From NCBI GenBank assembly GCA_022573225.1, contig JACZUI010000017.1, positions 1 to 46,546 on the forward strand: a DNA stretch of 46,546 nucleotides, written 5' to 3'. The notes below the pieces were generated by a model. That model did not search any database, was not told the origin of the DNA, and saw nothing but the letters and a program-made list of their open reading frames with translations. This document shows, piece after piece, positions 1-9,121 of this stretch (the first letter of the stretch is position 1; each line of letters begins with the position of its first letter). The position numbers and the translations under genes are program-made. This DNA comes from Acidobacteriota bacterium. Its GTDB lineage: Bacteria > Actinomycetota > Acidimicrobiia > Spongiisociales > ZC4RG35.

Positions 1-32
1 CCGAAGAGCTCCCCGATTCGAGCCGTGTCCAT
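1..32 (-). CDS. 5' end of an unidentified gene (runs off left edge)
   Basis: Reading leftward, an ATG at 32-30 opens a frame that stays open to the window edge and encodes MDTARIGELF. A strong ribosome binding site (GGAGG followed by a 7-base spacer) precedes the ATG, which is why I believe this is a real start. Too little protein is visible to name it. It lies in the same direction as the phage-like operon to its right, so it may be the next gene of that element or the first host gene beyond it. Confidence 0.5.
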   Translation of the reverse strand, partial: MDTARIGELF

Positions 33-150
33 GACCTTTCCTCCAACTCAGTTCCGTTGGACCAGGCTACGCAGACAGGCCCTAGGAGTGCCCAAATCCC
101 CCGCCCATAACCGGCATTATGTGCGGCTAGTAGGCCGACGAACATCGCCC

Positions 151-705
151 CTAAACGCGTTCGTTTTCCGGCCTCGGACCCTCCCGGTCTCCTGAAAATG
201 ATGCTCGAGCAGCCTTCATAGCTTCTACCGCTTCTCCGTGTCCCAGGGTTTTATGTTCTAACAGTGCTTCCGCCAAGCCTCGGACCATGGCGCGGACATC
301 GGGCCGTTCAAGAAATGACCGGACTCTCGGTCGAAGTTCCTCCAGAAAGCTGGATGCCTCCTCTGTCGAAGGCAAACAGATACTGGCTAACTTTTCTACC
401 TTGTACTCGTCGGTGGAGTGACGCGGTTCCTCGTTTCGCAACTCATCTGAGATGGGCCCAGCCAAGCCCGTCGCGCAAACGTGCGCCAGACAGAGGAGAT
501 CATCCTTTTCCTGGCTGGTGCCGAATGAGGGATAAAGGGGGTCAAAATCCCCCTCTCTGCCCTCATCCGGTTCAATCGTGACACGAAAGAACCGTGTGCC
601 GGTGCCCGGGTCACGACCCTCAGGGGTGCTCTTCCACCACCACCACCAGACGACGGCGTGAGATGCCTCGTGATCTGCAACGGAGGCGGGCTTAGGGTCG
701 GTCAC
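151..705 (-). CDS. small M41-like HExxH protein of the phage-like element
   Basis: A 184-residue protein of unknown role. Near the N-terminus (residues 12-16) it has HEASH, an HExxH zinc-protease motif in the context DHEASHAVV, which matches the HEAGHAVV helix of FtsH-type (M41) peptidases. The C-terminal half is helical and ends in a segment (LLEHKTLGHGEAV) resembling the LL..E.L.GEEV helix of M41 proteins. No AAA+ domain or membrane segment is present, so it is only the protease-like part. Five tryptophans in a row follow the motif, encoded by a (CCA)5 repeat on the + strand. It is the last complete gene of the leftward operon. Peptidase activity is inferred from the motif only. Confidence 0.6.
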   Translation of the reverse strand: MTDPKPASVADHEASHAVVWWWWWKSTPEGRDPGTGTRFFRVTIEPDEGREGDFDPLYPSFGTSQEKDDLLCLAHVCATGLAGPISDELRNEEPRHSTDEYKVEKLASICLPSTEEASSFLEELRPRVRSFLERPDVRAMVRGLAEALLEHKTLGHGEAVEAMKAARASFSGDREGPRPENERV

Positions 706-1438
706 GGTCCCCAGGGAACCTACTCAATGAGCGTAGACCCCCGACCACTCCGACGAGGACGCCGTAGACGCGATTTCCGCGGTGGCGGGTGAGGTTGGGG
801 TGGGTTCGGACTGGGCATGGGGATAGGGACATCCCAGTAAGGAGTACGCCGGAACCCACCCCTTCCTCACCTAGTCGAACCTACACCAACCGGACGAAAC
901 CCCCGGTGGCCGGTCCGGCTCCTAGGAAGATATTGGACGCGGTCCCCCGGGGGTTCCAACATTGAGGGGAAGTTTCAGCCATTTGGCCAACGGTTAAAAC
1001 AGTCTCAACAGGATCAAAAATACACTCAGCCCGCTCATTTGCAACCTATGTGTCCGGGCGGGAGGGGAGGTTATCCGTTGGCCTATCTCAGGCCTCCCCC
1101 ACCCGCCCGGATGACCACCGGGGAAGAGGGGTACAACTCCCCGGCATGACCAACAGGCTACGGCGGAGATGCCCATCCCTATGGCAACCCCGCTCATACG
1201 TCGTGCGTGGCCCGGGTCGGTCTCAGAGGCGTAGACATAGACAGAACCCCCCCTCCAATCGAGGGGGGTTCTGCCGTTGGAGGCCTCCCGCGCAAGCAAA
1301 CACGGGAGACGCTCCGATGGAACCGGCGAAGACAAAGGAGAAAACTCCGGCCCCTTGCGGCGGGGCCACCCAGACTCCCGGATGGGGGGGCAAAACCCCG
1401 GAGGGAAGGGCGACCCGCCGCAAACTGTTAGGTCATGT
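706..1438. other. 733-base stretch without a convincing gene
   Basis: This GC-rich stretch lies between the small M41-like gene and the gene after the capsid gene. Open frames exist on both strands, but they are rich in Pro, Arg and Gly, lack ribosome binding sites and resemble no family I know. It contains several C-run/G-run hairpins, the strongest at 1242-1273. It could hold a non-coding RNA, a packaging or regulatory site, or decayed sequence. I see nothing more specific. Confidence 0.5.
1242..1273. terminator. strong G/C-tract hairpin, terminator-like
   Basis: A long inverted repeat: left arm 1242-1255 (CAGAACCCCCCC then TC), right arm 1261-1273, loop of about 5 bases, with one extra C in the left arm. 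It lies 165 bases downstream of the leftward gene ending at 1439, where a terminator of the capsid-gene transcript would fit. No T-tract follows on either strand, so intrinsic termination is not proven. Another structured-RNA role is possible. Confidence 0.4.
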
Positions 1439-1840
1439 TCAGCCGAGGCCAAACGGTTGGATTCGATACGAAACCGAGACGAAGACGTTGCCCGACGTTG
1501 TCGAATACCTCAACGGTTCGTTGTTGTCGCACTTGAACAGGTTTCCCGCCCCGGTCGGGGGCACCGCTACGACAGGCCCATCCGTCGACTCAGTTGAGCG
1601 ACGGAGGACAAGGCGATCATCCTCAACGGTCCAGTCCCGTCGCTGGCTCCGCGGGCCACTTGGCTGCCCGGTGGCGTACTGACGCCACAGCAACGTTGAT
1701 CCTGAGTGGAACGAAACCGTCGCCCCGGTGCCCGTGGACACAAAAACGGAGTCGACTACGACGACGCTGCCCACGCCTGGCGCGGCCACCAAGACCGCGC
1801 CAGTTTGGGCTTGCAACTGATCGTCAGAAGCGTGAGCCAT
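1439..1840 (-). CDS. unknown protein encoded directly after the capsid gene
   Basis: A 133-residue protein whose ATG lies 3 bases after the capsid-gene stop, so it is almost certainly co-transcribed with it. It is rich in Val, Ser, Thr and Gly with alternating hydrophobic residues (for example GSVVVVDSVFVSTG), a pattern typical of an all-beta protein. It has no signal peptide, and I recognise no family. In phages this position often holds a head decoration or head completion protein, and the beta-rich composition would suit that. This is inference from position only. Confidence 0.6.
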   Translation of the reverse strand: MAHASDDQLQAQTGAVLVAAPGVGSVVVVDSVFVSTGTGATVSFHSGSTLLWRQYATGQPSGPRSQRRDWTVEDDRLVLRRSTESTDGPVVAVPPTGAGNLFKCDNNEPLRYSTTSGNVFVSVSYRIQPFGLG

Positions 1841-1843
1841 TTT

Positions 1844-3301
1844 CTAGGTCACGTCCAGCAACTCGAAGGCGCTGTCGTTGACCGAATCAGCCCCGGTGCG
1901 GTAGTAGGCATAGAAGCCTCTCTGACCGGTGGGTCGGTTGTTAGAAGTCGAGAAGATGTGGGGCACCATTTCGACCTGCATCCCAATTCTGTCAGCGATG
2001 ACATAATTGGAGAAGTCGCCGAGCAGCAGCAGCAAGTTTGTCTGTCCGGCGTTAATCACGCCATCCATGTACGAGCTGGTAGCCGTAGGAGCTTCGAGGA
2101 GCAGATTCCCCGCCGACTCAGTCAGGAACGGTGCCGGTGACCCGTCCGTTCCCATTTGCCGAATCAGCGAGTACGCCAGAGGCGAAGCTAGCCAGGTTGA
2201 CCTGGCCGCAAACCGCGCCGGCAGCGCATCGTGCAGGGCGTAGACGTCGGCGATCGCGAAAGCGTCGGTTGACGCTGAAGACAACGCTCCAGCCGTGACC
2301 GCCACGATGATCCCGAAGGGCTGGCCTGAGCCAGTACCAAGGGTGAGGGCGGTTCCCTCAAGGTCGTTGCGACCATCGACGAGCAAGGTTGTCACAGCTT
2401 CGGTGACGTTGGCCTCATCGGCCAAAGCCTCGATGCTGATCGGCACGAAGCCCTGCGCCTTGTGAATCACCACTGTGGGCTGAGTGAAAGTCGTAGCATC
2501 GTCGCTCACCTCCGCAGCCTCAACATCCCAGCTCCAAGAAACTGCGCCAGAGGCGACGCCGTTCCAGACATCACCGGTGGCAACCACCGTCTTGGAAATC
2601 CGGCGAATGTCGGAAATTCCTAGATCGTCGGTCATGATCACGCTGGGGTCCAACTGGAAGGGCACCAAGAATCCACCTTCGCTGTCGGTGAGGGACATGG
2701 CCCTGCCGAACTCACGAACGCGGCGAGCCGCGCGGATCTCCGGGTCGGTCAGTAGCGGGGTTGTGTCCCGCATCATCTGACTGAAGGCGCTCAAGTAGTC
2801 GGGGTCTGAAGTCACCAAGGCGTATCTCGCAATCACGCCGTCGGGGTCCTGATTTTCGATCAGCCCGGTCGCCTTAGAACGGCTGGCGTCGCTGAGTCCC
2901 GATGCAACCTCGACGGCACTAAGAGCTCTGCTCTTTGCCTCGTCGACGGAAACGCTCCGGCCGAGAACACCCGACTCCAGCGAGTCCCAAGGGTTTGAGC
3001 CGGTGAAGTAAGGAACGTCCTTGTGGTCCCGGATCGGGTCGCGGTCAAGGTCGAACCCGTCACCACGTTCGATCGCGTATTTGCCGGACTTCATGCCGGC
3101 CTGGATTTCGACGGCACGTTCGGCTTTCAGGACGGCTTCCCGTTCGTCGAGCTGGTTGATCTCCTCGATGATTTTCGAGACGCCACGGTTCAGGCGGCGT
3201 TCCCGCTCCGAGCCGTGTTCGGTGGTTTTGATATCCGCCTGAATGGACTCGACTTTGTCGAGCAGCGCTTCACGCCGCTCCGAGATTTGCTCTCGTGTCA
3301 T
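1844..3301 (-). CDS. HK97-fold major capsid protein
   Basis: A 485-residue phage major capsid protein that would form the head shell. Residues 1-70 are a charged coiled coil, the usual N-terminal scaffold (delta) domain, followed by a less conserved stretch to about residue 205. The HK97 core begins near residue 209 (GGFLVPFQL) and runs to the C-terminus, about 277 residues. The family hallmark EGTALTLGTGSGQPFGI is at 315-331. Start supported by AGGTAGGA just upstream of the ATG. In HK97 phages the scaffold is cut off by a phage-encoded protease, but none is encoded nearby. Its length resembles the capsid proteins of the mycobacterial phiRv elements. Confidence 0.9.
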   Translation of the reverse strand: MTREQISERREALLDKVESIQADIKTTEHGSERERRLNRGVSKIIEEINQLDEREAVLKAERAVEIQAGMKSGKYAIERGDGFDLDRDPIRDHKDVPYFTGSNPWDSLESGVLGRSVSVDEAKSRALSAVEVASGLSDASRSKATGLIENQDPDGVIARYALVTSDPDYLSAFSQMMRDTTPLLTDPEIRAARRVREFGRAMSLTDSEGGFLVPFQLDPSVIMTDDLGISDIRRISKTVVATGDVWNGVASGAVSWSWDVEAAEVSDDATTFTQPTVVIHKAQGFVPISIEALADEANVTEAVTTLLVDGRNDLEGTALTLGTGSGQPFGIIVAVTAGALSSASTDAFAIADVYALHDALPARFAARSTWLASPLAYSLIRQMGTDGSPAPFLTESAGNLLLEAPTATSSYMDGVINAGQTNLLLLLGDFSNYVIADRIGMQVEMVPHIFSTSNNRPTGQRGFYAYYRTGADSVNDSAFELLDVT

Positions 3302-3345
3302 TTCCTACCTCTTGGTTAAGCACGCCGATGAGGGCAATGCAGGTT

Positions 3346-3531
3346 TTAGCTTGAGCTTCCGGCGAGGCATGTGCGGCACCGGCGACACTCGCACCAAGAG
3401 GTCGGCCCTTGCACTTGGCGGCGGTCGGCTCGAGTTGAGCGGACGGCGGCACCCTTGGCTAGCGGGCGGACGGCCTGAGCTTGTCCTTCAGTCCCGGCGA
3501 GGCATGTGCGGCATCGGAACCTAGGTTCCAT
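3346..3531 (-). CDS. possible small Cys-repeat protein
   Basis: A short frame upstream of the capsid gene in the same direction. From the ATG at 3531 it encodes a 61-residue protein starting MEPRFRCRTCLAG and ending with CECRRCRTCLAGSSS. The CRTCLAG unit occurs twice, 45 codons apart, because a 24-base direct repeat lies in frame. Paired CxxC units suggest metal binding. There is no clear ribosome binding site and the middle is low-complexity, so this may be non-coding repeat sequence. Other genes of this element are also tiny and Cys-rich, which keeps it plausible. Confidence 0.3.
   Translation of the reverse strand: MEPRFRCRTCLAGTEGQAQAVRPLAKGAAVRSTRADRRQVQGPTSWCECRRCRTCLAGSSS
3359..3382. 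repeat. 24-base direct repeat, copy 1
   Basis: Matches 3494-3517 with a single difference (C at 3379, T at 3514). The copies are 135 bases apart, a multiple of three, so in the leftward frame they encode the same CRTCLAG unit. Confidence 0.8.
3494..3517. repeat. 24-base direct repeat, copy 2
   Basis: Second copy of the repeat at 3359-3382, with one mismatch. The pair lies in the roughly 280 bases upstream of the capsid gene start and could be coding or a regulatory or packaging repeat. Confidence 0.8.
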
Positions 3532-3583
3532 GTTAGCCGAACTTTGAGCGAGATTCAAAGTTGCTTCGGCGTAAAGTCAAACC

Positions 3584-3829
3584 ATGCTGCTGTTCGGGAT
3601 GCGACTACTGAGGCTTCTCGTCAGGGTGATGCTCTTCGTGATCCCGATAGTTGTAGCTCAGATGATTCCCTGGCTTGCGGACCCCGGTCCATACGATTTC
3701 GAAACTGCATTTAATGGGTGGCTAGCACTCGTGGTTGCGTTTCTCACTTTGGGGGTTGGGGTGTGGCTCAACATGTGGTTTACGGACTGGAGCCGGGGGC
3801 GGCCATTTTGGCGGCGAGGCCTGGACTAA
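3584..3829 (+). CDS. small two-helix membrane protein (candidate)
   Basis: An 81-residue frame on the strand opposite to the surrounding operon. It has two clear hydrophobic segments, about residues 8-28 (LLRLLVRVMLFVIPIVVAQM) and 44-66, separated by a short acidic loop, and a basic C-terminus (DWSRGRPFWRRGLD). This positive-inside pattern with Trp at the membrane edge looks like a real inner-membrane protein. No good ribosome binding site is seen before the ATG. Its 3' end overlaps the converging gene at 3826 by 4 bases. In a phage-like element a lone opposite-strand membrane gene often serves exclusion or lysis. That is speculation here. Confidence 0.45.
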   Translation: MLLFGMRLLRLLVRVMLFVIPIVVAQMIPWLADPGPYDFETAFNGWLALVVAFLTLGVGVWLNMWFTDWSRGRPFWRRGLD

Positions 3830-4080
3830 TCCCTCCCAGCGGCGTCTCGCAGTTCACCCTCCAGGCCAGTGATCAGATCATCAGTCGCCGCGCCAACCAG
3901 ATCAACCTTCGCTATCAGGTCAATCCCCTGGGCGTGGATCACCACCGTCACCTCGTCGTTTCGTAGTCGTTTGAGGGTTGCCGGGTTGAGGGCCAGCTGG
4001 TCGAGGAGGGCGCCGAACACGGTGCCGAGGTTCAAAATCCATTCGGCGTCGTCGATGGTCGTAGGTGGTGGCAGTTCCAT
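3826..4080 (-). CDS. hypothetical small protein of the element
   Basis: An 84-residue, acidic, mostly helical soluble protein with a good ribosome binding site (AAGGA, short spacer) before its ATG. I do not recognise a family. It belongs to the leftward operon of small genes between the RepA-like ATPase and the capsid gene and sits 12 bases after the zinc-knuckle gene upstream. No Cys, signal peptide or membrane segment is present. Confidence 0.65.
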   Translation of the reverse strand: MELPPPTTIDDAEWILNLGTVFGALLDQLALNPATLKRLRNDEVTVVIHAQGIDLIAKVDLVGAATDDLITGLEGELRDAAGRD

Positions 4081-4092
4081 TTGTCTTCCTTT

Positions 4093-4269
4093 CTATGCGA
4101 GCCAGGCGATCTCGTTACGCCTCGGCTCGGTCTTGGTTACAGCTCGGGCCCGGTAAGCAGCCTGGCGACATCGCCCCGAGCAATATCGAGCGTCGCGGCG
4201 AGACGCCATAAAAGCCTGTATGCAATAAGCGCAAATCTGGTATCGCCGTCTCGCTCGAGGTTCAGTCAC
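4093..4269 (-). CDS. small zinc-knuckle protein
   Basis: A 58-residue basic protein with CxxC (ICAYC) and then a YCSGRCRQAAYRAR segment (CxxxC), a short zinc-finger pattern common in small proteins of actinobacterial phages and integrative elements. A GTG at 4269 is chosen because AAGG lies 8 bases upstream. A GTG at 4305 would add 12 residues but has no binding site. DNA or RNA binding is likely from the zinc knuckle and basic charge, but the target is unknown. Confidence 0.6.
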   Translation of the reverse strand: MTEPRARRRYQICAYCIQAFMASRRDARYCSGRCRQAAYRARAVTKTEPRRNEIAWLA

Positions 4270-4425
4270 GGTCCCAGCCTTTTTGAGACCTGAACAAGAA
4301 AACACTATTGGGCGTGTCTAGAAGTCGGTCCCTATGAGTTCCTTCGGGGTTCCCCCCTACCCGACGGTATGCCAGGGCTAGGTCGTCCGGGTGGGCCAGT
4401 GGGTGGTGGCTATGGGGGGTGTGCT

Positions 4426-4686
4426 TCATGGGGTGTCACCGGGGAGGTGGGGGCCGGGGTAGGTCTTCAAGTACCAATCCAATCTGTCTTTCTGCATCCT
4501 CTCGGCGTGGCCTTCTTCGTCTGGCAGTTCTACGAGTTGGCGGCGGACTCCATCCGGCCTGCAACGATGAAAAAAGATCACGACGTGGGGAGGGGAGGTG
4601 CCCGACCAGGCGCACCCCTTACACGCCCACGTCCGGCGGTTGCGTTTGAGGGCTTCGCCGGGCGTCTGCTCGAAGTCGGGAGTCAT
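4426..4686 (-). CDS. small Cys-containing hypothetical protein
   Basis: An 86-residue protein starting MTPDFEQTPGEALKRN. Its ATG overlaps the stop of the preceding gene (ATGA, 4683-4686), a classic sign of translational coupling, so I prefer it to an ATG 57 bases upstream. It has a CxxC unit (ACKGC) followed about 20 residues later by HRC, a possible metal site. I recognise no family. It is the third gene of the coupled series that starts with the RepA-like ATPase. Confidence 0.65.
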   Translation of the reverse strand: MTPDFEQTPGEALKRNRRTWACKGCAWSGTSPPHVVIFFHRCRPDGVRRQLVELPDEEGHAERMQKDRLDWYLKTYPGPHLPGDTP

Positions 4687-4898
4687 TGGCGGTACTCCTT
4701 CTGCTCTTCGGCGGGCGTGATCTGTTTTGTCAGGTTGCCGCACGTTTTACAGAGGGGCTTATCCAGGTTGATGGTGACTGGTCGGGCGGGACGCTTCCCG
4801 CATGGCACCACCCACCGTTTCTCATTGATGTCCCAGCCGGCGAGGTGGATGCGTTCTGGACTATCAATGAAGTGAAAGGCGCGATAAGAGCGTCTCAC
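4683..4898 (-). CDS. small CxxC hypothetical protein
   Basis: A 71-residue protein with a GTG start that overlaps the stop of the RepA-like gene (GTGA) and a stop that overlaps the next ATG, so it is translationally coupled on both sides. It has one Cys at VVPCGK and a CxxC unit (LCKTCGN), perhaps a small zinc ribbon. No family recognised. The tight coupling to the replication-type ATPase suggests it is made in step with it, possibly as an accessory factor. Confidence 0.65.
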   Translation of the reverse strand: MRRSYRAFHFIDSPERIHLAGWDINEKRWVVPCGKRPARPVTINLDKPLCKTCGNLTKQITPAEEQKEYRQ

Positions 4899-6538
4899 GC
4901 CGGGTCCGGTTTGTCGTCGACGTCGACGGGCGGTTTCTCATCGGGGGTTGGTGGCCCGCAGTCCCGGCAGTAGGGAATCCGGTCAGCCCATCGCCAGGCG
5001 ACAGCCCCGCAGCTGCAGTGGTCACCGTCGAGGACACCGGGAGTGGAATAGTCGTCCTCCTCTGAACCGGTGGTGTCGGTGGTTTCGGTGACGGAGAATG
5101 CATCGAGGACAGGTTGGTTTGGGTCTGGTTTGTCTATCCCGCCCGCTTCTTCTCCCGACCGTGTGTTCAGTGCGCCGGTCCCTATAGGTACCGGCGCGCT
5201 CAACTGACTGCGCCGTGGTTCAGTCGGCGCACTCCCGCGCACTGGCGCGGTCAACTCGAAAAGTGTTGCATTCCTTGGTCCTTTTGTGACTTTGACCGCG
5301 CCGTTTAGTGCTCCGTCGGGTCCGCGCAGTCGGAGTGCGCGCCGGATGGATTCCCGTGAGTGCGCCGGCGCGGTCAAACCTTCACCCGATGCTTCGACGA
5401 TTTGCCTTATAGACATTGGCTTTTCGGCGTTTTCGAGCAGCTTGAGGATGTCGGGGATGGCTTCGCGGGCTTTGGCGTCTTTCCGGTTTCCTCCGGCGAC
5501 GGTGAGGTGGCGTGTCGTCTCGTCGTAGGTGAGGAGAGACTCAGGAAAGTCGACGTCTCGTCCGTAGGCTTTGATGTACCTGGGAGACGCGGGGTCTTCT
5601 TTGTCTTCCCTGACGAGCTGCCATTCGACATCGGGCCAGTCGCGGAACCGGGAGTCGCCGCGGGCACGTTCGGCGGTGTGCCCCATGTGGTGGATGATCA
5701 AAGAATCTGGGATTCCCGCCTCGTGGCACAGCTCGTCGAATGCGGTGAGGAACCGTCCGCCGTCGCGGTGTTCGTCGAGGCCGAGAGCGTCGAGGATCGG
5801 CCTGAGCGGGTCGAGAATCAGGTAGTCGAACTTGGCTAGCCGTTGAGCCCATTCGGAGAGTGTGGCCTCGTCTAGAAGGTCGAACGTTGACGCCTTGCCT
5901 CTCATCGGTATGACTGTGACCCGGTCGTCGGCTTCGATGCCCTGGTCGGCGAGCCACGCGGCCAACTGGTTGCCGCCCATTTCGAAGTCGAGGATCACGA
6001 CACGGTCGACGGTGTTCACCTCAAACTTTCCGAGGAAGAGATCCCCGTCGACCAGTGCTCGGGTGACGTTGTCCCGGACGGTCGTTTTCCCCGCCTTGTA
6101 TTGAGCTGAGAACATCACCCTCGTATCGGCGGGTTGGAGGCCTTCGATCCGATAGGTAATTTCGGGTTGTGGTCGTGCCAGTAACTCCCGGAGGGTGAGG
6201 ATCTCCGGCGGTTCCACTTGTGGCCGGTTTTCCGTGTTGAACAGTCGCCGCGCCTTGTCCCGTGTCCTGAGCCGGGTTAGCTCCTGTTCCACTTCGGGGT
6301 CGAGTGGCTGCGGGGTCAGGTAATACTCGAGGTTGTATTCGAGGTCGCCCCGGCAGTCTTCGCAGCCCCAATAATCCCCGAGGGGGCTTTTCCAGGTGGC
6401 CGGCTTCTCGCAGATGAAGCAGTCGTGGCCGTCCAGCGGTTCGTCCGGCGTGTTACTCTGGGCCTCAGTTGATGTAGTAGTTAACTTTTGGACCTGGGCC
6501 TCTGCGATGAGGCCCGGTTCATTTTCTGGCGACGCCAT
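4895..6538 (-). CDS. RepA-like RecA-fold ATPase with zinc knuckles
   Basis: A 547-residue protein, probably the replication ATPase/helicase-type protein of the element. Residues 40-62 form a zinc knuckle (CxxC, then CEDC). A P-loop SAQYKAGKTT lies at 144-153, a Walker B strand VVILDFEMG at about 180-188, and a second acidic strand DYLILDPLRP further on, the order seen in RepA-like AAA_25 ATPases. Residues about 355-425 look like a winged-helix region. The tail is acidic and ends in a second Cys cluster (CSCG, CRDCG). The ATG at 6538 overlaps the stop of the HTH gene (ATGA). A GTG one codon earlier is less likely. In similar elements this gene follows the excisionase gene, as here. Confidence 0.8.
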   Translation of the reverse strand: MASPENEPGLIAEAQVQKLTTTSTEAQSNTPDEPLDGHDCFICEKPATWKSPLGDYWGCEDCRGDLEYNLEYYLTPQPLDPEVEQELTRLRTRDKARRLFNTENRPQVEPPEILTLRELLARPQPEITYRIEGLQPADTRVMFSAQYKAGKTTVRDNVTRALVDGDLFLGKFEVNTVDRVVILDFEMGGNQLAAWLADQGIEADDRVTVIPMRGKASTFDLLDEATLSEWAQRLAKFDYLILDPLRPILDALGLDEHRDGGRFLTAFDELCHEAGIPDSLIIHHMGHTAERARGDSRFRDWPDVEWQLVREDKEDPASPRYIKAYGRDVDFPESLLTYDETTRHLTVAGGNRKDAKAREAIPDILKLLENAEKPMSIRQIVEASGEGLTAPAHSRESIRRALRLRGPDGALNGAVKVTKGPRNATLFELTAPVRGSAPTEPRRSQLSAPVPIGTGALNTRSGEEAGGIDKPDPNQPVLDAFSVTETTDTTGSEEDDYSTPGVLDGDHCSCGAVAWRWADRIPYCRDCGPPTPDEKPPVDVDDKPDPA

Positions 6539-6735
6539 CACTCAACCTCGAGGCTCGGGTTTGAGGCCTTCACCCATTCGGCGAGAAGGTTCGGGTCGTA
6601 TCGGACTCTGCCGCCGATTTTGACTGCGAGGCTTCCGGGTTGGACGCCGCGGGATCGCTGCATGGCGAGGGCTGTGGCGGATGTGCCGAGAAGCTCTGCG
6701 GCTTCTTCGGGCGGGATAACTAGGGGGGTTCCCAT
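6538..6735 (-). CDS. excisionase-like helix-turn-helix protein
   Basis: A 65-residue MerR/excisionase-type DNA-binding protein. The segment VIPPEEAAELLGTSATALAMQ is the HTH, and GGRVRYDPNLLAEWV is the wing and following helix typical of the helix_turn_helix_17 family. The ATG at 6735 is chosen because GGAG lies 9 bases upstream. The frame could extend to 6792 but without a binding site. It is the first gene of the leftward operon and diverges from the integrase, the place where satellites and phiRv-type elements carry their excision factor or operon regulator. It may do both jobs. Confidence 0.75.
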   Translation of the reverse strand: MGTPLVIPPEEAAELLGTSATALAMQRSRGVQPGSLAVKIGGRVRYDPNLLAEWVKASNPSLEVE

Positions 6736-6937
6736 TGGAAGGGTCTCCTGTCTTGTTCCGAACCCAAGACTTTCTTGGGTTCGCGGCGACATACGTTTTC
6801 CCTTCGTGTTGAATTTTCCCAGCGTTATGGGCCAATGTCAACGATGTTAGAAATGCCCGTCGTTGTTAAGGATTTCGGGTGGTCGCAGCGGTGGGTTAAA
6901 TGCTGTTTTCGCGGTTTTCGCGGGTTATCGTGGCCGC

Positions 6938-8026
6938 ATGGCCGCATGGATCACGAAAAGAGATCGGCCTAAACCGTGGCTCGCACGGTTCGCCCCACCC
7001 GGAGGCCGCACCGTCTCAAAAGCGTTCTACCTGAAACGGGAGGCGCAGGTCTGGTTGTCGGCGAAGCGGGCGGAATATGAGGCTGGCGACTTCGTCGACC
7101 CCCGAGCCGGAGCCGACACCTTCGGTGCGTATGCGGCTGGCTGGCTGGAGCGTCGAGAGGTCAAACCGTCGACAAAGTATCGGGACGGCTCTTACATCCA
7201 CTCGTTGATGCTCCCCACCTTCGGCGAACGGCCGCTCAACGCGATCACACCCGACGAAATCGAGGGGTGGCTGGTCGAGGTCAAATCTGAGAAGGCGCCG
7301 GCGACAGTCCACATGGCCCGGAGGATCATTGGCGCGGTGTTCACCGACGCGGTCGACCGGGGGCAGCTGGCCCGGTCTCCGATGCCGTCGAAGGCCAGGC
7401 TGAAACGGGTGCTCCCCAAGTATCCGAAACCGTCGAACCCGAACACCAAGTTTCTAACCATCAAGGAAGTCGGCGGTCTGGCAGACGCCATCGAGCCTAT
7501 GTACCGGGCAATGGTGCTCACCGGTGCCTACGCGGGGCTCCGCTGGGGCGAAGTTGCCGCCCTATCACCGAAGAGCGTCGACGTCGGAAAGCGTCTGCTC
7601 AGTGTTCACTCCAATTTGGCCCAGCCGGTAGGCGGTGAGCCCTTCAGGGACAACGTGATGAAGACCGACGCGGCGAGGCGGACGATTGCTCTGGGTGCTC
7701 TCACCGAGGTACTTGTCGACCACGCCGAGAAGTACGCGGCGAACGGCTGGCTGTTCCCTACGAAGGCGGGCGGCCCGTTGCGTGCCGGGTTGTGGCGCCG
7801 CCGGTATTGGCTTCCAGCATGTGAGGCCGTAGGGCTGGCTCCGCTAAGGTTCCACGATTTGAGACACACCCACGCCGCCCTTCTGATCGAGCAGGGTGAG
7901 CCGGTGAAGCTCATCCAAGAGCGTCTAGGTCATGCCACAGCCACAGTCACCATGTCGGTTTACTCCCATTTGTTCCCCGGTGTCGATGAGGCGGCGGCGG
8001 ATAGGCTAACCGGCAACCTGTTGTGA
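6938..8026 (+). CDS. int: tyrosine-type site-specific integrase
   Basis: A 362-residue tyrosine recombinase that should insert and excise the element. The N-terminal part (about 5-45) resembles an AP2-like arm-binding region, followed by a core-binding SAM-like domain. The catalytic residues are all visible: Arg in AGLRWGE (residue 202), HDLRH (306-310), His in LGHA (332) and the Tyr nucleophile in SVYSH (342). The ATG at 6938 is preferred because the residues before it do not look like the family; no Shine-Dalgarno sequence is evident, so it may be leaderless. It lies at the right end of the element, transcribed away from the excisionase operon, so the right attachment site should be in 8027-8119. 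Confidence 0.9.
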   Translation: MAAWITKRDRPKPWLARFAPPGGRTVSKAFYLKREAQVWLSAKRAEYEAGDFVDPRAGADTFGAYAAGWLERREVKPSTKYRDGSYIHSLMLPTFGERPLNAITPDEIEGWLVEVKSEKAPATVHMARRIIGAVFTDAVDRGQLARSPMPSKARLKRVLPKYPKPSNPNTKFLTIKEVGGLADAIEPMYRAMVLTGAYAGLRWGEVAALSPKSVDVGKRLLSVHSNLAQPVGGEPFRDNVMKTDAARRTIALGALTEVLVDHAEKYAANGWLFPTKAGGPLRAGLWRRRYWLPACEAVGLAPLRFHDLRHTHAALLIEQGEPVKLIQERLGHATATVTMSVYSHLFPGVDEAAADRLTGNLL

Positions 8027-8119
8027 CTTTCCGCGCACCATACGCTCACCGCAGCAATATCTGAACCCAGTAATCGTTAGGTAACAGTTGATGATTCGTC
8101 GCCTTAGGCTCATGCACGA

Positions 8120-9121
8120 ATGAGGCATTTCCTCAACACCTCAGACTGGACTCGCCCTGAGCTCCAGGCCCTGATCGACGATGCCCGCTTGCTCAAGGAG
8201 TCGCCACATGGCGATGCCCTCGAAGGTAAGACGATCGCCCTTCTCTTCCTCAACAACTCCCTGCGCACCCGCACCTCATTCGATGTCGGAGCACGCCACC
8301 TAGGTGGACACGCCATCGTTCTCTCGCCGTCCGGAGGGATGTGGCCCCTCGAGTTCGAAGACGGTGTGGTGATGGACGGGGAGGCTGAGGAGCACGTCCG
8401 CGACGCCGCCAAGGTCCTTTCCCGATATTGCGACCTGATCGGGATCAGGGCGTTTCCCAAATTCGAGAGCTGGGAGGAGGATCGCAAGGATCGAATCCTC
8501 AACGCGTTCGCCGCTCACTCGGAAGTACCGGTCATCAACATGGAGACCATCACCCACCCTTGCCAGGAGATGGCGCACTTGATGGCACTCCAGGAACGAC
8601 TTGGCCCGTTGGACGGGAAGAAATATGTGTTGACCTGGAGCTACCACCCCAAGCCGCTCAATACCGCAGTCGCCAACTCCGCTTTGATGATTGCGGCCAA
8701 ATTCGGAATGGATGTCACCCTGCTCTGTCCCACCGACGACTACATCCTCGACAAGCGGTACATGACCATCGCGAGCAAGGACGCAGAAGCGAATGGTCGG
8801 TCGGTCACGGTCACCCACGATCCCGGGGCCGCCTATGGCGGGGCCGACATCGTCTACGCCAAGAGCTGGGGCGCCCTCCCCTACTTCGGCAACTGGGACG
8901 CTGAGAAGCCGATCCGCGATCGCTACAAAGACTTCATCGTCGACGAAGACAAAATGGCGCTGACCGACAGCGCTGTGGTCAGCCATTGTCTCCCGATGAG
9001 GCGCAACCTGATCATGACGGACGGTGTTTTCGACGGACCCAACTGCTTCGCCTATGACGAAGCGGAGAATCGCCTTCATGTCCAGAAGGCCATCATGAAG
9101 CGACTGGTGGAGGCGGGCTGA
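8120..9121 (+). CDS. argF': N-acetylornithine carbamoyltransferase
   Basis: Transfers a carbamoyl group from carbamoyl phosphate to N-acetyl-L-ornithine, giving N-acetylcitrulline, in the variant arginine pathway known from Xanthomonas and relatives. The 333-residue protein aligns with that family end to end: FLNNSLRTRTSF (phosphate binding, instead of the S-T-R-T-R of normal OTCase), INMETITHPCQE, TWSYHPKPLNTAVANSA, SHCLPMRRN and the ENRLHVQKAIM tail. The residue that separates acetyl- from succinyl-ornithine enzymes is Glu90 here (MDGEAEEH), as in the acetyl type. No Shine-Dalgarno sequence is evident. It heads a tight operon with the kinase/synthase (3-base gap) and argC. Confidence 0.9.
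   Translation: MRHFLNTSDWTRPELQALIDDARLLKESPHGDALEGKTIALLFLNNSLRTRTSFDVGARHLGGHAIVLSPSGGMWPLEFEDGVVMDGEAEEHVRDAAKVLSRYCDLIGIRAFPKFESWEEDRKDRILNAFAAHSEVPVINMETITHPCQEMAHLMALQERLGPLDGKKYVLTWSYHPKPLNTAVANSALMIAAKFGMDVTLLCPTDDYILDKRYMTIASKDAEANGRSVTVTHDPGAAYGGADIVYAKSWGALPYFGNWDAEKPIRDRYKDFIVDEDKMALTDSAVVSHCLPMRRNLIMTDGVFDGPNCFAYDEAENRLHVQKAIMKRLVEAG

Follow-up and report, generated by a model that had tools for sequence, protein, structure and literature searches.

The locus described here lies at the left end of a window of 46,546 nucleotides, which is the complete contig C1 of a draft genome (75 contigs, 2.46 Mb, 89% complete). Position 1 is the end of the contig and nothing is assembled further left; therefore, the element at this locus may be cut. 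From right to left, the genes are an N-acetylornithine carbamoyltransferase gene, a tyrosine integrase, a small HTH_17 gene, an AAA_25 helicase, four small ORFs, a gap, a capsid gene and a gene for a protein of 133 amino acids. The carbamoyltransferase gene (argF, 8120-9121; NF003384, 3e-164) is the right neighbour of the integrase, and there are no tRNA genes within the window. The integrase and the capsid, both of which exceed the curated cut-offs, are 3.6 kb apart. The main core frames (including integrase, helicase and capsid) are open and coding-like, the exception being one ORF of 70 amino acids, which is weak. The gene content, i.e., integrase, HTH, helicase, Cys-rich genes and an HK97 capsid, with no portal, terminase or protease, is real.

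The tyrosine integrase (6863..8026, plus strand; PF00589, 2.9e-18; phrog_1, 5e-63) has the motifs GLRWGE, HDLRHTHA and GHATATVTMSVYSH. Its start codon is uncertain, with an alternative ATG near 6939. Its translation shows the R..HxxR..H..Y motifs, in agreement with the identification made in an earlier first-pass annotation of this DNA, and it is thus an intact tyrosine recombinase with the R-H-R-H-Y motif, as expected of an integrative mobile element. Divergent from the integrase is the gene for the small HTH protein (6538..6792, minus strand). It had been called a divergent excisionase: the divergent HTH gene is present, but its match to HTH_17 (2e-4) is below the curated cut-off and its match to a PHROG excisionase is about 1e-3, and the protein may be an excisionase-like or helicase-coupled regulator. 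The next gene encodes a replication helicase of the AAA_25 RepA/DnaB type (4895..6541, minus strand; PF13481, 9e-23), previously named a RepA-like ATPase. It has zinc-ribbon-like Cys motifs at the N- and C-terminal ends alike, and 38-45% identity to its phage and plasmid relatives.

The four small ORFs between the helicase and the capsid span 3826-4898 (minus strand). Three of them contain Cys motifs, and the tiny Cys-rich genes that had been listed for this element are therefore present. The first, of 71 amino acids (4683..4898), is Cys-containing, is recognised as an ORF only, and overlaps the end of the helicase gene by 4 bp. The second, of 86 amino acids (4426..4686), has a CxxC motif, an RBS-like GGAG upstream, and a 4-bp overlap with the first. 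The third, of 70 amino acids (4093..4305), is Cys-rich and zinc-finger-like, with matches to PHROG families (2e-5 to 3e-4), some of which are named HNH or primase; it is weakly supported because its codon score is negative. The fourth encodes a protein of 84 amino acids (3826..4080) with no family match, a good codon score and an RBS.

The capsid gene (1844..3301, minus strand) encodes an HK97 major capsid protein of 485 amino acids (PF05065, 9e-32; TIGR01554, 1e-37), which matches a solved structure (PDB 9lw6) at 7.5e-112. The protein is full-length and has the long N-terminal scaffold domain that was noticed at the outset: about 208 residues lie ahead of the GGFLVP motif, as in complete phages. 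The same long domain is found in the siphophages Mycobacterium Sbash and Gordonia Eyre and Kita, whose capsids are 44-48% identical to this one; these, however, are complete phages, which have terminase and portal genes and in which a distinct head protease gene immediately precedes that of the capsid. The terminal branch of the present capsid is 1.6 changes per site, against a median of 0.19 (8 times the median), and the protein is altered at 20 of 115 near-invariant positions, where the median is 1 and the next highest count is 10 (in L179, its neighbour in the tree). Judged by these two measures, the capsid is fast-evolving.

Three bases past the capsid stop begins the gene for the protein of 133 amino acids (1439..1840, minus strand). 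Its composition is coding-like, but it is an orphan, having no real relative in phages, Pfam, PHROGs, PDB or 395 genomes, and its fold model is unusable; by its position, it is perhaps a virion decoration protein. A putative regulated promoter of this unit (3516..3562, minus strand) has the form TTGAAT-17-TAACAT and is overlapped by an inverted repeat, AACTTTGA-N7-TCAAAGTT, inside which it lies; such a repeat (8 + 8 bp) would be expected 0.02 times in the window. The promoter was read by eye, and a stricter promoter scan does not return it. After the inverted repeat comes a 14-bp palindrome, GGAACCTAGGTTCC, in its sole exact copy. After the gene for the 133-amino acid protein, the unit is closed by a strong terminator-like hairpin (1248..1268, minus strand) with a GC-rich stem of 8 pairs and a T-rich tail. 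Thus, as far as can be read from the sequence, the capsid gene and its small partner appear to form a self-contained unit, with an operator-like promoter region and a terminator-like hairpin. Between the capsid gene and the putative promoter there is also a 24-bp direct repeat (3359-3382 and 3494-3517; 23/24 identical, 135 bp apart).

To look for the missing head genes, profiles for portal, protease and large terminase were built on two complete cassettes of related genomes (L024 and L025), together with phage Sbash (L022), and the 80 viral loci holding the best capsid relatives were scanned. The protease is directly upstream of the capsid in 78 of the 80 loci (the remaining two begin too close to the capsid), and the portal is present in 53 of the 56 loci with enough upstream sequence. 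In these relatives, terminase, portal and protease are upstream (5′) of the capsid, which corresponds here to the integrase side and is fully sequenced. A six-frame translation of 1-8200 has no match to portal, protease or terminase, either whole or as fragments (best E 0.03, in an integrase-strand stretch), in agreement with the absence first noted for all three. A hidden or broken protease was looked for in the 525-bp gap (3301-3826) and not found, and PF04860 (Phage_portal) has no match in the whole 89%-complete assembly.

With the upstream side complete and free of head genes, the missing genes do not simply lie beyond the end of the contig, unless this element departs from the order seen in every relative with room. 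This bears on the possibility that the locus is an ordinary or rearranged prophage, with its packaging and tail genes beyond the left contig end, a possibility for which the first-pass annotation had looked to portal, terminase and tail genes left of position 1. The contig does stop at position 1, and the search for an attL gave none. However, relatives with room carry terminase, portal and protease on what is here the sequenced side, the DNA downstream of the capsid consists of a terminator and of modules shared with islands that have no capsid, and the portal family is absent from the assembly. An ordinary prophage with the canonical gene order is nearly excluded by this comparison, and the wider reading, rearranged forms included, is improbable.

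The three loci without a portal (L204, L211 and L247) keep protease and capsid, and lack portal and terminase. These three we take to resemble mycobacterial phiRv-type elements. The phiRv1 and phiRv2 elements keep a protease next to the capsid. Since the portal-less relatives retain the protease, the present element differs from them, and the loss of the protease appears to set it apart from all relatives found, the portal-less ones included. In the capsid tree, the present capsid stands apart from L204, L211 and L247; therefore, the lone capsid is probably of separate origin, with the usual caution for long branches. L204 carries a helicase along with a serine-recombinase-like gene. In L211 and L247, the capsid is immediately followed by a long gene that is tape-measure-like and by one for a minor tail protein, which is odd for a satellite. 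By this comparison, the gene plan with its missing head protease is real and is unusual among the relatives found.

Elements with an integrase and a major capsid protein have been recognised as candidate PICIs in Mycobacterium, phiRv1 and phiRv2 included [PMC10654092]. The present element is like these in being integrated, in having an integrase and an HK97-type capsid (and, as in some of them, a replication helicase) and in having an incomplete phage gene set; it differs in having no head protease, in the absence of a visible tRNA attachment site and in its non-Mycobacterium host. The likeness to phiRv1 and phiRv2 that had been drawn for it thus holds in outline, through this class and through the three portal-less relatives, but not for the protease. 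The element would add a variant to the known class, in which the protease is absent too. Capsid-encoding satellites of another kind, the cf-PICIs, have genes for protease, portal, connectors and terminases as well [reviewed in PMC10690885]; the present element shares with them its own capsid gene and an integrase, but is not a cf-PICI because protease, portal and terminase are absent. The Mulch and Flayer satellites of Streptomyces phages are likewise actinobacterial, capsid-encoding and tail-less, and MulchRoom has an integrase; they have terminases, portal and scaffold genes and no obvious replicases, whereas the reverse is the case here [PMC10690885].

On the replication side, the closest parallels are the Rhodococcus plasmid pDJL3 and the IMG/VR contig L134, which have an integrase, an HTH gene ahead of the AAA gene (a pair annotated as such in pDJL3) and a helicase of the same AAA family, 43-45% identical in the case of pDJL3. 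They differ in that pDJL3 has terminase and tape-measure genes and L134 has terminase-, portal-, capsid- and tail-like genes. The int-HTH-AAA layout is thus that of complete mini-phages or plasmid-phages, whose terminase and structural genes come after the helicase, at the place where here there are the small ORFs and the 525-bp gap. This would suit a defective prophage remnant, i.e., a small actinobacterial tailed phage from which terminase, portal, protease and tail were deleted, leaving the integration and replication end and a capsid that makes no particles. The long capsid branch with its many changed conserved positions points the same way, as does the rest of the genome: contig C18 (L038; 5188-6507) has another copy of the AAA helicase (74% identity), adjoining a tRNA-Arg gene (6816-6889) and without a neighbouring integrase or capsid, suggesting that elements of this kind also decay in the same genome. 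Contig C44 (L052), which has a 45-bp match (8367-8411) to the tRNA stretch of C18, may be the other end of this helicase island. However, every core frame is open, the capsid comes with a promoter-like operator and a terminator of its own, and the six-frame translation holds no debris of the head genes. A remnant is a serious candidate, somewhat short of an even chance.

Slightly favoured over such a decayed prophage, at a probability of about 0.47, is an integrated PICI-like satellite that depends on a helper, if that term is taken broadly enough to cover actinobacterial elements with integrase and capsid. None of the integrase, helicase and capsid frames is broken, each is coding-like, and the sequenced upstream side is free of the genes that nearly all relatives carry there. 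The operator-like promoter region and the terminator-like hairpin of the capsid unit would be of no use to debris. Furthermore, a class of candidate PICIs with integrase and capsid is recognised in Mycobacterium [PMC10654092], and the same capsid family includes three portal-less relatives. Against this, the helper, excision and the particle are hypothetical, the left end and the att sites are missing, the helicase relative on C18 stands without a capsid and is remnant-like, and the capsid has diverged at conserved positions. Moreover, neither the 395 genomes of the class nor IMG/VR yielded another element with this gene order. Scans of genome and viral contigs for close relatives, by capsid or helicase alone, returned nothing; the relatives came via alignments.

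If the element is a satellite, its life cycle may be pictured as follows. Its own integrase, together with the HTH factor, would excise it, and the RepA-type helicase would support its replication. Induction via the operator-like region would switch on the capsid and the 133-amino acid protein, giving the element its own HK97 shell protein. This shell protein would assemble on the portal of a co-infecting helper, perhaps a phage of the Sbash/Eyre capsid lineage, whose protease would trim the shell, whose terminase would fill it and whose tail would be fitted to it. The satellite-like plan of the first-pass annotation is sound as a gene plan (integrase, helicase and capsid, without portal, terminase or protease), and the decayed prophage fits nearly as well as dependence on a helper. 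The gene plan and the missing protease are real, and we infer helper use, maturation in trans and the limits of the element; therefore, that earlier picture is partly supported.

A narrower form of the satellite reading is doubtful: a minimal capsid satellite that gives only the major shell protein and one orphan (perhaps virion) protein, taking protease, portal, terminase and tail from its helper, with a capsid that has diverged at conserved positions for its own, perhaps smaller, heads, made on an assembly line of mixed origin. If functional, the element would make the smallest head contribution among the capsid-encoding satellites compared, i.e., the shell protein only, with maturation outsourced. 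It would then allow one to ask which head functions a satellite and its helper can share, and whether a foreign protease processes a scaffold-bearing HK97 shell in trans. As a remnant, it would be no more than a common case of prophage decay.

The capsid could also have been kept as an interference protein, which co-assembles with the shell of an infecting phage and spoils or resizes it, protecting the host or the element without making particles of its own. A full-length, separately regulated capsid without partners and with changed conserved sites would be in keeping with such a role, and capsid redirection is a common strategy of satellites, although by other proteins [PMC12409344, PMC10690885]. 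A precedent for a full-length major capsid protein acting alone in this way was not found, and defence families have no match among the neighbouring small proteins and the helicase; this role is quite unlikely.

The left limit of the element had been placed at 151. This is unsupported, as the window is a whole contig and two stretches, 1-127 and 735-1162, are common to other contigs; the defensible core is approximately 1235-8026. Close to its end, contig C58 has a stretch identical to positions 1-127, the two sequences diverging directly after a 26-bp palindrome (101-126), and positions 99-285 have a 90% DNA match to C8:4814-5000. The stretch 735-1162 is a hairpin-rich non-coding module of about 430 bp (RNA fold z -2.2), 88-90% identical to C6:114-588 (L050) and C8:639-911 (L051), and it may serve in packaging, regulation or recombination. 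IMG/VR gave no exact match either to this module or to the palindrome. A left boundary near 1163, suggested by the shared module, was dropped, as the other copies are also in integrated islands and C58 pairs 1-127 with island-like sequence. Since the shared modules are in other islands, the left 1.2 kb is a zone common to several mobile islands. A tRNA gene is present on each of C6, C8, C18 and C2, and integrases are present on C6 and C56; C44, C56 and C58 have short matches to the tRNA stretches of C6, C8, C18 and C2, as expected of opposite island ends.

Within the earlier range, but outside the provable core, is a cargo-type gene for a protein of 184 amino acids (151..705, minus strand). 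Because its flanks (1-127 and 735-1162) are common to other contigs, it belongs to an island cargo zone and not clearly to the phage-like core. Its protein starts with a HEASH motif, presumably like that of M41-type metallopeptidases, and has no family match, no PDB match and a poor fold model; the motif is not claimed as a substitute head protease.

Attachment repeats above chance were not found: direct matches to 7990-8180 are at most 10 bp long, which is at chance level, as are the 9 bp that the palindrome core (108) shares with the end of the integrase (8007). In related genomes, the gene before argF differs, being in several of them a SIMPL-domain gene, of which no homologue was found in this assembly, so the empty site could not be drawn.

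The palindrome at 101..126 (plus strand), which is attC/dif-like, is one of approximately 21 copies in the genome, of the form CCGC[AC]CATAA-N6-TTATGTGCGG; the others are on C6 (597-667, 1326), C44 (4677-4747, 5883, 6317, 7254), C56 (988, 1586, 3992), C2 (764-823, 1348), C8 (375, 920, 3767, 4816), C58 (18191) and C18 (4766). No integron integrase was found at the TIGR02249 cut-off. Several of the palindromes are paired, each pair giving an imperfect hairpin of about 72 bases that has AAC/GTT ends and one bulged base; some of the copies bracket single small genes. The palindromes resemble the cassette ends of integrons (attC, or dif-type), lying within genomic islands.
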